DNA of 36,663 nucleotides from Lacinutrix mariniflava. Its GTDB lineage: Bacteria; Bacteroidota; Bacteroidia; Flavobacteriales; Flavobacteriaceae. Made by a program: the position numbers and the translations under genes. Positions 982 to 34,842 of the stretch are shown here, piece by piece. The stretch covers positions 1-36,663 of the forward strand of contig NZ_LIQG01000021.1 in NCBI RefSeq assembly GCF_001418015.1. Direction: 5' to 3'. Below the pieces are notes generated by a model that was given only the letters and a program-made list of their open reading frames with translations, was not told the DNA's origin and searched no databases. The stretch's first letter is position 1; the number at the start of each line of letters is the position of its first letter.

Positions 982-1061
982 GCGTTAGGGATTGAAACGG
1001 CATCCTTTTTTCTTTTTTGAAAAAAGATATAGTGTAAAGCCCGACCTTTAGGTAACGCCCA
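982..1061 (+). ncRNA. Conserved structured intergenic element, copy 1 (Flavo-1-like candidate)
   Basis: An 80-nt element opens with GCGTTAGGGATTGAAACGG and closes with AAGCCCGACCTTTAGGTAACG. GCGTTA pairs perfectly with the terminal TAACGC. ACC-TTTA-GGT forms a small hairpin near the 3' end. The centre is a long hairpin of ATCC-T6-C against GAAAAAAGAT with one bulged base. A second copy with the same flanks but a different central arm lies at 33771-33858. Both precede housekeeping genes on the plus strand. The pattern resembles a recurrent Bacteroidota intergenic RNA such as the Flavo-1 motif; that name is from memory and unverified. It lies upstream of the thrS promoter, so it is not part of that leader. 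Confidence 0.6.
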
Positions 1062-1093: not shown

Positions 1094-1124
1094 TTGTTTG
1101 TGTGTTTATAACCTATTATCTTTG
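1094..1124 (+). promoter_or_regulatory. thrS operon promoter
   Basis: TTG (1094-1096), a 20-nt spacer and TATCTTTG (1117-1124) match the Bacteroidota consensus. Transcription would start near 1131, leaving a short leader of roughly 16 nt before the thrS ATG. A long T-box-like leader is therefore not expected. Confidence 0.7.
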
Positions 1125-1146: not shown

Positions 1147-3081
1147 ATGATACAGATTACTTTACCAGATGGGAGTGTTAAATCGTTAGAAGCGAACTCG
1201 ACTCCTATGGATGTTGCTAAAAGCATAAGCGAAGGTTTTGCTAGAAATGTTATTTCTGCAAAATTTAATGGACAAACCGTTGAAACCGTTACTCCTTTAA
1301 CAACCGATGGTTCTATAGTATTATATACCTGGAATGATGATGAAGGGAAAACTGCTTTTTGGCATTCTAGTGCTCATGTTTTGGCACAGGCTGTTCAGGA
1401 ATTGTATCCTAATGCTAAATTAACGATTGGGCCTGCGATTGATCGTGGTTTTTATTATGATGTGGATTTTGGTGATGCTGTGTTGTCTGATAAGGATTTT
1501 ACAACGATTGAAAAGAAAATGCTTGAGATTGCTCGTGGAAAACACGACTTTAAAATGAGAAGCGCATCTAAGGCTGAAGCTTTAGAGTTATATAAAGACA
1601 ATGCGTTTAAGACTGAATTGATTGAGAATTTAGAGGATGGCACTATTACTTTTTGTGACCACTCTACTTTTACAGATTTATGTCGTGGTGGACATATACC
1701 GAATACTGGCATTATTAAGGCTCCTAAAATACTCTCGGTAGCTGGTGCTTATTGGCGAGGTGATGAAACAAAGCCGCAATTAACGCGTATTTATGGGATT
1801 GCTTTTCCGAAACAAAAGGAATTAACTGAATATTTAGCTTTATTAGAAGAAGCTAAAAAGCGTGACCATAGAAAACTTGGTAAGGAGCTAGAGTTATTTA
1901 CATTTTCGCAAAAGGTTGGTGCTGGATTACCGTTATGGTTACCTAAAGGTGCTGCCTTACGTGAGCGTTTAGAGAATTTTTTGAAAGCTGCACAGAAAAA
2001 AGCAGGTTACGAAATGGTAATGACTCCACATATTGGACAAAAGGAACTTTATGTTACTTCTGGACATTATGCTAAATATGGTGAGGATAGTTTTCAAAGC
2101 ATAAAGACACCTAAAGATGATGAAGAGTTTTTATTAAAACCTATGAATTGCCCACACCATTGTGAAATATATAACGCAATGCAATGGTCTTACAAAGATT
2201 TACCTAAACGATTTGCTGAGTTTGGTACTGTTTATAGGTATGAGCAAAGTGGTGAATTACATGGATTAACGCGTGTTCGTGGTTTTACTCAAGATGATGC
2301 GCATATCTTTTGTACTCCTGATCAATTAGATCAAGAGTTTAAAAATGTTATAGATTTAGTACTTTACGTTTTTGGTTCTTTAGGTTTTGAAAATTTTACA
2401 GCACAGGTTTCTTTAAGGGATCCGGAGGCGCCAGAAAAATACATTGGTAGTCTTGAAAATTGGGATAAAGCTGAGCAAGCTATTATTAGTGCTGCTAAAG
2501 ACAAAGGTTTAAATTATGTTATTGAAACTGGTGAAGCAGCTTTTTATGGTCCTAAATTAGACTTTATGGTTAAGGATGCTTTAGGTCGAAAATGGCAACT
2601 TGGAACAATACAGGTTGATTATAATTTACCAGAACGTTTTGAATTGACTTATAAAGGAAGTGATAATGAGTTGCATAGACCTATAATGATACACCGTGCT
2701 CCTTTTGGTAGTATGGAACGTTTTATAGCTATTTTATTAGAACATACTGGTGGTAATTTTCCACTTTGGCTAATGCCAAATCAAGTTTCTATATTAACTC
2801 TTAGTGAGAAATATGAGAAATACGGTGAAAAAGTTTTAAATTTGCTAGAAAAACACGAAATTCGCGCTCTTGTAGATAATAGAAGTGAGACTATTGGTAA
2901 AAAAATTAGAGAGGCCGAAATGAAGAAGACGCCTTATATGATTATCATAGGAGAGAATGAAGAGAAAGAAAACAAGATATCTGTTAGACAACATGGAGGA
3001 GAAGATTTAGGCACGATTAGTGTAGAAGAGTTCTCAAAGATTGTTGATATAGAAATAAATAAGACATTAAAACAATTTTAA
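1147..3081 (+). CDS. thrS: Threonine--tRNA ligase
   Basis: The cytoplasmic class II aminoacyl-tRNA synthetase that charges tRNA-Thr with threonine using ATP. At 644 residues it has the usual bacterial length. An N-terminal TGS domain (about 1-61) is followed by the HxxxH editing domain ([11 protein letters not shown] near residue 75) and its SAD part, then the class II catalytic core. The zinc-ligand segments are visible: [10 protein letters not shown] near 334, DDAHIF near 384 and [12 protein letters not shown] near 517. A C-terminal anticodon-binding domain ends the protein. The ATG at 1147 is well placed behind the promoter at 1094-1124. It leads the translation operon with infC, rpmI and rplT, a linkage common in bacteria. 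Confidence 0.98.
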
Positions 3082-32485: not shown

Positions 32486-33616
32486 TTAAAGTCTTTTATC
32501 CATTTGTTTAACCATCATGTCTTTCCAAGTTCTAAAATCTCCTGCTAAAATATGCTTTCTAGCTTCACGAACCAACCACATATAAAATCCTAAATTATGA
32601 ATGGTTGCTATTTGTGCTGCTAATCTTTCGTTTACAGTAAATAAATGTCTTACATAAGCCTTAGAGTAATCTGTATCCACCCATGTAATTGCCATATCGT
32701 CTAAAGCAGAAAAATCGTCTCTCCATTTTAGGTTTTTAATATTTATAGAGCCATGTGCTGTAAATAACATACCGTTTCTAGCATTACGCGTTGGCATAAC
32801 ACAATCAAACATATCTACACCAAGTGCAATATTTTCTAGGATATTAATTGGAGTTCCAACTCCCATTAAGTAACGTGGTTTATCTTCTGGAAGTATAGCC
32901 GTTACAATCTCTGTCATCGCATACATCTCTTCTGCCGGTTCACCAACAGACAAACCTCCAATAGCATTACCTACTGCTCCTGAGTTTGCTATATACTCTG
33001 CCGATTGCACACGTAAATCTTTATAACAACTCCCTTGTACAATTGGAAAGAATGCTTGAGAATAGTCGTATTTAAAAGGTACTTTCTCTAAATGATTAAT
33101 ACATCTATCTAACCACCTATGCGTCATCTTCATTGAGCGTTTAGCATAATTATAATCGCAAGGATACGGTGTACATTCATCGAAAGCCATAATAATATCT
33201 GCTCCAATACTACGCTGGATCTCCATTACGCTCTCTGGTGTAAATGTATGGTAACTACCATCGATATGAGATTTAAACTTTACACCTTCTTCTTTAATCT
33301 TTCTATTAGCAGATAAAGAGTAAACTTGATAACCACCAGAATCGGTTAAAATATTACGATCCCAATTCATAAATTTATGTAAACCACCTGCTTTTTCTAA
33401 AACATCTATTTGAGGTCTTAAATATAAATGATAAGTGTTTCCTAAAATTATATCTGGATTAATATCATTTTTCAGCTCACGTTGGTGCACTCCTTTTACA
33501 GAAGCAACTGTACCAACGGGCATAAAAATTGGAGTTTCTATAACGCCATGGTCTGTAGTAAGTACTCCAGCTCTTGCACTACTTTGTGCATCTTTACCTT
33601 TTAATTCGAATGTCAT
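32486..33616 (-). CDS. tgt: tRNA-guanine (queuine) transglycosylase
   Basis: 376 residues from ATG 33616, matching the family length; the upstream ATG at 33676 adds a hydrophobic stretch that does not fit. The enzyme exchanges G34 of Asp, Asn, His and Tyr tRNAs for preQ1. Visible motifs are ILTDSGGYQVYSLS, IMAFDECTPYP, GGLSVGEPAEEMY and FDCVMPTRNARNGMLF with the catalytic Asp. The zinc site, normally CxCxxC plus a later His, lacks its cysteines here (SALDDMAITWVDTDYSKAYV), although the His in TIHNLGFYMW remains. It heads the tgt-lptF/G-eamA-accA run. Confidence 0.95.
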   Translation of the reverse strand: MTFELKGKDAQSSARAGVLTTDHGVIETPIFMPVGTVASVKGVHQRELKNDINPDIILGNTYHLYLRPQIDVLEKAGGLHKFMNWDRNILTDSGGYQVYSLSANRKIKEEGVKFKSHIDGSYHTFTPESVMEIQRSIGADIIMAFDECTPYPCDYNYAKRSMKMTHRWLDRCINHLEKVPFKYDYSQAFFPIVQGSCYKDLRVQSAEYIANSGAVGNAIGGLSVGEPAEEMYAMTEIVTAILPEDKPRYLMGVGTPINILENIALGVDMFDCVMPTRNARNGMLFTAHGSINIKNLKWRDDFSALDDMAITWVDTDYSKAYVRHLFTVNERLAAQIATIHNLGFYMWLVREARKHILAGDFRTWKDMMVKQMDKRL

Positions 33617-33770
33617 ATTTATGGAAATATTCAGCATGTAAAGATAAATAACAAAATAACATAGCTTCTTAAACATTTAATAAAATTCTAAAAACTTTAC
33701 AAGTGCACTATTTCTATTACTTACAAAAATAAAAATATTACGGAGGTTTAACTTCTCTCTATAGAAAAGC

Positions 33771-33858
33771 GCGTTAGTGATAGTAACGGAAAGCCCACAG
33801 CCTGACGCAGGAAGTGCGAGGACTTGTAGTGGATAGCGCGACCCTTGTGGTAACACCC
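33771..33858 (+). ncRNA. Conserved structured intergenic element, copy 2 (Flavo-1-like candidate)
   Basis: It begins GCGTTAGTGATAGTAACGG and ends GACCCTTGTGGTAACACCC, the same frame as copy 1 at 982-1061: GCGTTAG-GAT-G-AACGG at the 5' end, TAGTG-AAGC/AGCGCGACC in the middle, GGTAAC-CCC at the end. The central arm differs (CCCACAGCCTGACGCAGG instead of a T/A-rich hairpin), as expected for a structured RNA with a variable arm. It is more G+C-rich than its surroundings. It lies upstream of the transketolase promoter. The rest of the 33617-33996 gap contains only AT-rich sequence and that promoter. Confidence 0.6.
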
Positions 33859-33939
33859 AAATAATTTTTGCAGTGCACTAAAAGTTTACAATTGTTAGCA
33901 AATTGTATGAATTGGTTAATAAATGTATTAACTCTTTCT

Positions 33940-33970
33940 TTGTTTAAGGCTTATAATAAAGTTATTTTTG
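33940..33970 (+). promoter_or_regulatory. Transketolase operon promoter
   Basis: TTG (33940-33942), a 20-nt spacer and TATTTTTG (33963-33970) match the Bacteroidota consensus. The predicted start near 33977 leaves about 20 nt before the ATG at 33997. Confidence 0.65.
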
Positions 33971-33996: not shown

Positions 33997-34842
33997 ATGG
34001 CAAACACACAACAATTAGAAGACATTACAACTCAAGTTCGTAGAGACATTTTACGAATGGTTCATAAGGTAAATTCTGGACACCCAGGAGGTTCTTTAGG
34101 CTGCGCAGAATTTTTTGTTTCGCTTTACAACGAGATAATGGATAGGAAAGAAGGTTTTGACATGGATGGTATTGGAGAAGATTTATTTTTCCTTTCTAAT
34201 GGTCATATCTCACCTGTTTACTATAGTGTTTTAGCTAGAGTTGGTTATTTCCCAATAGAAGAGTTAAATACTTTTAGATTATTAAATTCACGTTTACAAG
34301 GACATCCAACAACTCATGAAGGATTACCAGGAATTCGTATTGCTTCAGGTTCACTAGGTCAAGGTCTAAGTGTTGCCCTTGGTGCTGCACAAGCTAAAAA
34401 ATTAAATGGTTGTAACCACTTAATTTATAGTTTACATGGAGATGGTGAATTACAAGAAGGTCAAAATTGGGAAGCTATTATGTATGCTGCAGGAAAAAAT
34501 GTAGATAATATAATTGCTACTATAGATTTAAATGGTCAACAAATTGATGGTTCTACAGACACTGTATTACCAATGGGAAGTATAAAAGATAAGTTTGAAG
34601 CTTTTGGCTGGACTGTTCTTGAAATTGAAAAAGGTAATAATATAGATGCTATTTTAAAAGGAATGGCAGAAGCAAAATCTTTAACTGGAAAAGGAAAACC
34701 TGTTTGTGTATTACTAAAAACAGTTATGGGTAACGGAATCGATTTTATGATGCATACTCATGCTTGGCATGGAAAAGCACCAAATGATGAGCAATTAGCT
34801 ATTGGTTTAGCACAAAACCCTGAAACTTTAGGCGATTATTAA
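33997..34842 (+). CDS. Transketolase, N-terminal (thiamine-diphosphate-binding) subunit
   Basis: 281 residues corresponding to the first third of full-length transketolase. It carries the ThDP pyrophosphate-binding domain: SGHPGGSLGCAEFFVSLYNE, SLGQGLSVALGAAQAKKL and the GDG...N motif in HGDGELQEGQNWEA with IATIDLNGQQIDG. It transfers two-carbon ketol units in the non-oxidative pentose phosphate pathway. It needs the partner subunit encoded 55 bp downstream. Two-gene transketolases are established in many bacteria and archaea and usual in this lineage, so this is not a truncation. Confidence 0.95.
   Translation: MANTQQLEDITTQVRRDILRMVHKVNSGHPGGSLGCAEFFVSLYNEIMDRKEGFDMDGIGEDLFFLSNGHISPVYYSVLARVGYFPIEELNTFRLLNSRLQGHPTTHEGLPGIRIASGSLGQGLSVALGAAQAKKLNGCNHLIYSLHGDGELQEGQNWEAIMYAAGKNVDNIIATIDLNGQQIDGSTDTVLPMGSIKDKFEAFGWTVLEIEKGNNIDAILKGMAEAKSLTGKGKPVCVLLKTVMGNGIDFMMHTHAWHGKAPNDEQLAIGLAQNPETLGDY

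Follow-up and report, generated by a model that had tools for sequence, protein, structure and literature searches.

Flavo-1 elements of Lacinutrix mariniflava share a covarying three-way junction and may be maintained as folded DNA

The window, which is the whole 36,663-nucleotide contig NZ_LIQG01000021.1 of Lacinutrix mariniflava, starts inside a 16S rRNA gene on the minus strand (5' end at 288) and carries two copies of one intergenic element (Table 1). Owing to this start inside 16S rRNA, copy 1 is seen to adjoin an rRNA operon: it is located between the operon and the promoter-like motif of thrS, and operon and thrS point away from each other. Copy 2 is located between tgt and the promoter-like motif of the transketolase gene tkt. 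Both copies sit in divergent spacers, upstream of motifs of the TTG-N20 type, which we take to be a promoter consensus. An earlier note on this DNA had described two elements with common ends and unlike central arms near housekeeping promoters (thrS, transketolase); their coordinates and likeness are borne out, as is the position of both upstream of such motifs.

Table 1. Features of the two Flavo-1 loci in the window
Feature	Position	Strand	Evidence and remarks
Flavo-1 copy 1, type I arm	982..1059	+	RF01705 56.5 bits; R1 96.5 bits; minimum-energy fold is the three-way junction
Copy 1, P1 5' strand GCGTTA	982..987	+	Paired to 1053-1058; P1 covariation
Copy 1, P2 5' strand with conserved internal loops (GGGATTGAAACGGCATCC)	988..1005	+	Covarying pairs 7-17, 8-16, 12-12, 16-8, 17-7
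Copy 1, variable apical arm (T-run, loop, A-run)	1006..1025	+	Swapped at some orthologous sites of other copies
Copy 1, P2 3' strand	1026..1044	+	P2 covariation
Copy 1, side hairpin P3 CCTTTAGG	1045..1052	+	Double-sided changes at one of two P3 pairs
Copy 1, P1 3' strand TAACGC	1053..1058	+	P1 covariation
Promoter-like motif of thrS, TTG-N20-TATCTTTG	1094..1124	+	3' of copy 1; conserved in congeners
thrS	1147..3081	+	TIGR00418, 720.5 bits
tgt, divergent from tkt	32486..33676	-	TIGR00430, 477.3 bits
Flavo-1 copy 2, type II arm GGAAAGCCCACAGCC...GCGAGGACTTGTAG	33771..33857	+	R1 43.8 bits; RF01705 29.9 bits; G002 and G007 carry this arm at the orthologous site
Copy 2, P1 5' strand GCGTTA	33771..33776	+	R1 match; one non-standard pair in P1
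Copy 2, P1 3' strand TAACAC	33851..33856	+	R1 match
Promoter-like motif of tkt, TTG-N20-TTTCTTTG (TATCTTTG in G005, G012)	33912..33942	+	3' of copy 2
Transketolase, N-terminal half	33997..34842	+	Best family transketolase; being half a protein, it scores below the cut-off for the full length

Both window elements belong to one family, Flavo-1, as the earlier note had supposed. The covariance search against Rfam that it had suggested places copy 1 above the gathering score of 42 bits of the Flavo-1 model RF01705 and copy 2 under this cut-off (E 1.1e-4 in a 251-base search). RF01705 is typed 'Gene; sRNA' in Rfam and as printed models the P2 arm alone. R1, a covariance model with a fuller structure built from 45 other copies, yields exactly two matches at E<=1 in the window, namely the two Flavo-1 copies, with rough E-values of 2.1e-22 for copy 1 and 6.1e-9 for copy 2; neither window copy was in the training set, which did include the orthologues of copy 1 from five other species. 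Being homologous by the wider R1, copy 2 is thus a divergent relative without a formal RF01705 match. With Flavo-1 as described by Weinberg et al. 2010 (PMC2864571), the window elements share the P2 arm, the conserved internal loops and the host group, to which the present analysis adds P1, P3 and further arm types.

In the L. mariniflava genome (G000), RF01705 has 45 matches at E<=1, of which 33 exceed the cut-off, and R1 has 56 at E<=0.01, giving a total of about 45-56 copies; some altered copies are missed by R1, such as the one at L222, which was recognised by eye. RF01705 matches at E<=0.001 are present in 37 of 60 genomes, G000 included, with 0 to 44 per genome within the genus. Across the Flavobacteriaceae, 186 of 299 genomes have Flavo-1 at E<=1e-4, in a survey with strict filters and at most 15 candidates scored per genome. 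The family is nearly absent from one congener, G010, which has no RF01705 match at E<=0.001 and three R1 matches (best E 3.3e-6); this near-loss concerns a single lineage whose placement in the tree has a weak support of 56. In G048, which belongs to another family, seven copies have near-identical cores and five of them a common stretch of about 70 nt upstream, which points to amplification in this genome. Judged by eye, most of these copies abut terminator-like hairpins at their right edge. Some of the copies with the common upstream stretch (L052, L109-L111, L114) also carry a palindrome resembling TATTCGAATA and a short frame that looks like a signal peptide. On the complete 3.30 Mb contig C1 of G009, every one of the 23 RF01705 matches (E<=1e-4) falls within 0-2.01 Mb, and the remaining 1.29 Mb holds none (chance about 1e-5 if uniform).

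The Flavo-1 fold is a three-way junction composed of an outer stem P1 (GCGTTA/TAACGC), a long arm P2 and a side hairpin P3. Outward from the junction, P2 consists of three pairs, an A.G mismatch, a U-A pair, one free pair and a purine-rich 3x3 loop, followed by two pairs, another 3x3 loop, AUC/GAU and an apex of T-run and A-run. The minimum-energy fold of the sense strand of copy 1 is this P1/P2/P3 junction, and that of copy 2 does not yield it. Covariation among genome-wide copies, the analysis proposed by the earlier note, is strong, also when no pairing rule enters the extraction. Testing all pairs of 43 block columns in 93 unique copies (two false rows removed beforehand), the five top pairs by corrected mutual information are the five variable P2 pairs. 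When copies are extracted by conserved letters, none of them at the five tested pairs, 668 of the 735 P2-pair cells in 147 unique rows, some of them false matches, are Watson-Crick versus 321 in shuffles (maximum 358), the others being G-T (13), A-C (11) or different (43). In alignment A1, 97.6% of 942 cells pair, double-sided changes occur at 11 of 21 pairs, and double-sided cells number 97, compared with 27.5 for shuffled rows and 2-13 for slid ones. The counts on A1 and on all block-extracted sets, the 93 copies and the comparisons of orthologous sites among them, lean towards structure, since block extraction and the choice of A1 rows demanded conserved letters and several standard pairs.

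The GCGTTA/TAACGC stem and the ACC/GGT hairpin, whose pairing had been read from the window, both covary among copies. P1 occurs in the variants GCATTA/TAATGC, GCGAGA/TCTCGC and GTGTTA/TAACAC in a set of 76 rows, 10 of which have three P1 pairs or fewer; P1 counts on this set and on A1 lean towards structure because the P1 end was chosen as the best-pairing hexamer. P1 remains significant with a plain GCC anchor blind to pairing, by which 268 of 348 cells at P1 pairs 3-6 are Watson-Crick versus 218 in shuffles (highest 231). In P3, one of the two pairs shows double-sided changes in A1. Even near-invariant positions change as pairs in more distant relatives when inspected by eye: the U-A beside the free pair is G-C in G024 (L241, L242), and AUC/GAU is UAG/CUA in G019, G020 and G033. 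In our favoured reading, what selection keeps in Flavo-1 is its single-strand fold.

Wobble pairs were considered as evidence for the strand and dropped. An excess of G-T over A-C (15 to 3), counted in 127 blocks by a rule that treated G-T as a pair and with one false coding-sequence match included, vanished (13 to 11) when pairing was left out of the extraction. That G-T does not outnumber A-C in the latter set differs from the tolerance expected of an RNA; as the excess is gone and the pairing-free rows are partly false, wobble cannot settle between RNA and DNA and the weighing of the two was left unchanged.

The copies persist at their sites. With flank similarity over more than 500 bases taken to define a counterpart, 20 of 22 G009 loci have one among 21 G011 loci, and 32 of 45 G000 loci have one in a set of 40 G002 loci that together cover 41 of the 43 matches in G002. 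Since sites are mostly shared, the present mobility of Flavo-1 is low. Across 28 orthologous G000-G002 pairs, the blocks are 92.6%, the apices 77.4% and the 60 nt upstream 66.6% identical, a comparison in which extraction favours intact copies and the flank is the upstream side only; of the other four among the 32 pairs, L028, L033 and L036 were unextracted in one or both genomes and L015 was absent from the list. In these 28 pairs, 28 of 252 pair cells have changed, 10 by double replacement of one Watson-Crick pair with another, 7 to or from G-T and 11 with a mismatch.

The apical arm is replaced in place. Apical identity is below 0.7 in 7 of the 28 G000-G002 pairs, and among the 11 of 20 G009-G011 pairs compared (the others were de-duplicated as identical or unextracted), one (L097/L144) has a wholly different apex, with different arms inside loci that are 92.5% identical. 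We distinguish four arm types by names coined here. Among the loci read, the commonest is type I (GGCATCC...GATATAG, or GGAAATCC...GATTGTAG). Type II is found at the tkt site of G000, G002 and G007, with an apex series C-G, T-G, T-A. Type III (GGTTTGTTTGAGCTCC...GAGCGAGTAGTG) is found in G002, G006 and G000 at the L092 site, with a close form in L040 and an altered one at the thrS site of G001, and type IV in G019, G020 and G033. The apical module GCTGCCATATATGGC occurs 18 times in the locus set, in which some loci overlap, and every time inside an element. Palindromes of other kinds, presumably common flavobacterial repeats (e.g. CTTCGACAGGCTCAGCCTGA, TCCCGATAACTATCGGGA, GTTCGAG...TCGAGAAC), lie in the apex or P3 of L115-L126, L023, L036, L037, L190 and L222, as if these repeats landed preferentially on hairpin tips.

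Occupied and empty sites are seen within the genus. At the thrS site, 10 of 13 genomes (G000 included) have a copy, of type I in nine; G003 and G010 have none, and G001 has a Flavo-1 shell with another arm. G008 has an interrupted copy (R1 43 bits) beside a broken thrS frame. In this genome, which is 84% complete, stops and frame changes interrupt thrS (L087-L089), probably through an assembly error. The tkt site is occupied in 3 of 12 genomes (G000, G002, G007), the set lacking G003, where no full-length match was found; at the nine empty sites, R1 finds nothing except a 14-bit fragment (E 0.37) in G001. The tree built from thrS and tkt pairs G000 with G002 as sisters and places G007 elsewhere, so that the tkt copy needs two gains or several losses. 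As to a target-site duplication, the tkt spacer shows by eye just an AT-rich near-repeat of 10-11 bases in G000 and G002, which is ambiguous in G007. At the L092 site, type I is present in four of 12 genomes (G005, G007, G009, G012), type III in three (G000, G002, G006) and no copy in five; the G000 copy carries two extra inserts and is missed by R1. A wider replacement is likely in G011, where the start of the adjacent gene is different as well. Two look-alike copies per genome, L079 and L103 in G009 and L081 and L147 in G011, change together between these species; as L103 is also similar to the sequence beside the thrS copy of G000, both may adjoin rRNA operons.

A decaying MITE-like repeat without function, its covariation produced by hairpin template switching and gene conversion among copies, would fit the terminal inverted repeat, the occupied and empty sites, the near-identical G048 copies and the arm modules common to several loci. 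We regard it as unlikely: template switching would erase mismatches, whereas internal-loop mismatches beside covarying pairs are conserved, and the blocks outlast their upstream flanks in place, with the leaning of the extraction towards intact copies given above. Repeats of the MITE type, such as ERIC and BOX, share with Flavo-1 the inverted ends, the two states of sites and the tens of copies; Flavo-1 differs in combining covariation with conserved mismatches and in having its interior exchanged in place. The caution of the earlier note that the copies might be a MITE-like repeat with terminal inverted repeats holds in part, given P1 and the occupied and empty sites, yet there is covariation too.

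A fold kept while the stem sequence changes, a variable terminal arm and exchanged inner parts would also befit a structure-recognised recombination site. Integron attC sites, with boxes RYYYAAC/GTTRRRY, are recognised by fold over sequence and have a variable terminal arm, a likeness that for Flavo-1 concerns a presumed recognition. Such an identity is highly improbable, as Flavo-1 copies are dispersed, cassette arrays were not noticed in the loci read, and the Flavo-1 ends do not fit the boxes.

Being hairpin-forming, intergenic, multi-copy and persistent, Flavo-1 resembles the REPIN/REP elements associated with RAYT transposases (PMC3116915, PMC2817692); it differs from them by needing no Y1 gene and by its conserved internal loops, three-way junction and compensating stems. 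Mobilisation of a REP-type element by a Y1 (RAYT) transposase is very unlikely here. Y1 genes are present in some relatives, and their weak positive correlation with Flavo-1 over 60 genomes (Spearman 0.24, p 0.07) speaks for it; G000 lacks a Y1 match, as do 11 of the 18 genomes with at least 10 copies, which largely refutes RAYT as a present need in the genus; it may have had a past role. In some lineage the link may hold, since G018 has 14 Y1 matches and 16 Flavo-1 copies.

Flavo-1 copies are dispersed in both orientations relative to their neighbours. Seen from the element, and with genes called by a simple longest-ORF rule here and in the larger set, the 45 G000 loci comprise 22 antisense to both neighbours, 10 sense, 5 convergent, 3 divergent and 5 incomplete. 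Over 106 extracted copies from five genomes (G000, G002, G009, G040 and G048, orthologous copies being counted repeatedly), 51 are tandem antisense, 29 tandem sense, 14 convergent, 6 divergent and 6 unclear, with the false coding match removed; the antisense lean of 51 to 29 has a binomial p of 0.018, valid for independent copies, which these are not. The motif TTG-N17-23-TANNTTTG, which we take as a promoter signature, occurs within 50 nt upstream just 2 times over 106 copies of G000, G002, G009 and G011 (again without the false match), showing no enrichment, and 10 times within 100 nt downstream. In a study of F. psychrophilum (PMC9723704), Flavo-1 matches are reported to be sense or antisense of transcribed regions, with many outside them, and several 5' transcribed regions to coincide with matches.

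Flavo-1 may still be a true RNA family, i.e. a trans-acting sRNA or an RNA-protein binding element expressed from weak or non-consensus promoters or by read-through, a possibility that we find open to serious doubt. It is favoured by the RNA-like internal loops, by the strong covariation, by the coinciding 5' regions of F. psychrophilum and by the mark 'RNA? y', i.e. probably, in Table 1 of Weinberg et al. (PMC2864571). The lack of promoter enrichment, the antisense lean, the thrS copy lying between two units that point apart and the many F. psychrophilum matches in untranscribed parts argue against it, as do the few G-U pairs (8 of 942 A1 cells, a count over Flavo-1 rows alone). The 'structured RNA' of the earlier note is thus upheld as to structure and not as to RNA nature.

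A cis-regulatory RNA of thrS and tkt, acting as leader, switch or attenuator, would agree with the location of both copies in front of these genes and is barely credible. Both copies lie upstream of the promoter-like motifs (starts being predicted from motifs) and so outside the predicted thrS and tkt mRNAs; other copies lie beside other genes in either orientation, and the tkt site is mostly empty, so a meaning of the thrS and tkt positions is not supported. In addition, the alternative GGAT/ATCC hairpin with its T-run is not kept in L234, L236 and L240, where ATC/GAT is TAG/CTA, and a terminator function of this hairpin was discarded on the same ground. In all probability Flavo-1 represents neither a conventional RNA gene nor a switch of adjacent genes.

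We favour a plausible account, somewhat short of an even chance, in which Flavo-1 is a DNA-borne folded element between transcription units, recognised in trans and maintained in place. A selected fold, the absence of a fixed relation to transcription, site retention and interior exchange make a folded DNA strand with trans recognition the simplest single account. The working form would be a folded DNA strand, as a hairpin or cruciform, whose conserved base a putative trans-acting protein would recognise; the element would be gained as a unit and then kept in place, its arms may be exchanged among copies by the putative partner, and copies would decay once this partner is lost. More specifically, and with considerable doubt, a putative enzyme may recognise the three-way junction on one strand, swap or re-copy arms between copies at tens of sites, and so keep the element at these sites over a genus. 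The purine-rich internal loops, which look RNA-like, count against the folded-DNA reading. No replication-strand bias was detected when the best split was compared to shuffled strands with the origin unknown (p 0.64 in G002, 0.24 in G009 and 0.65 in G026), although such a bias is predicted for a lagging-strand ssDNA transposon; this, too, counts against the favoured reading.

If Flavo-1 truly acts at the DNA level, a major bacterial group carries mistaken annotations and sRNA counts, and covariation, however strong, does not by itself prove an RNA. The modular arms and the occupied and empty sites make its maintenance mechanism testable, and the near-empty G010 beside rich relatives offers a route to the partner via gene content. 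Against the favoured reading, no trans-acting partner emerged among the Flavo-1 neighbours in 12 low-copy genomes (20 loci, part of their copies). Twelve neighbour clusters in this set are common to two or three genomes and represent generic families or shared loci, the widest being a short-chain-dehydrogenase-like family in three genomes (G024, G031, G053). A composite transposon bounded by inverted copies was considered and set aside: at L255 (G297, 1.4-2.7 kb of contig C84), Flavo-1 copies in inverted orientation enclose two small frames, for which an XRE-like regulator and a possible restriction enzyme are our guesses. In two genera, Flavo-1 lies between metH and metF (L237 in G013, L244 in G014; gene names read from sequence), and the L237 copy is the sole RF01705 match of its genome at E<=0.001.
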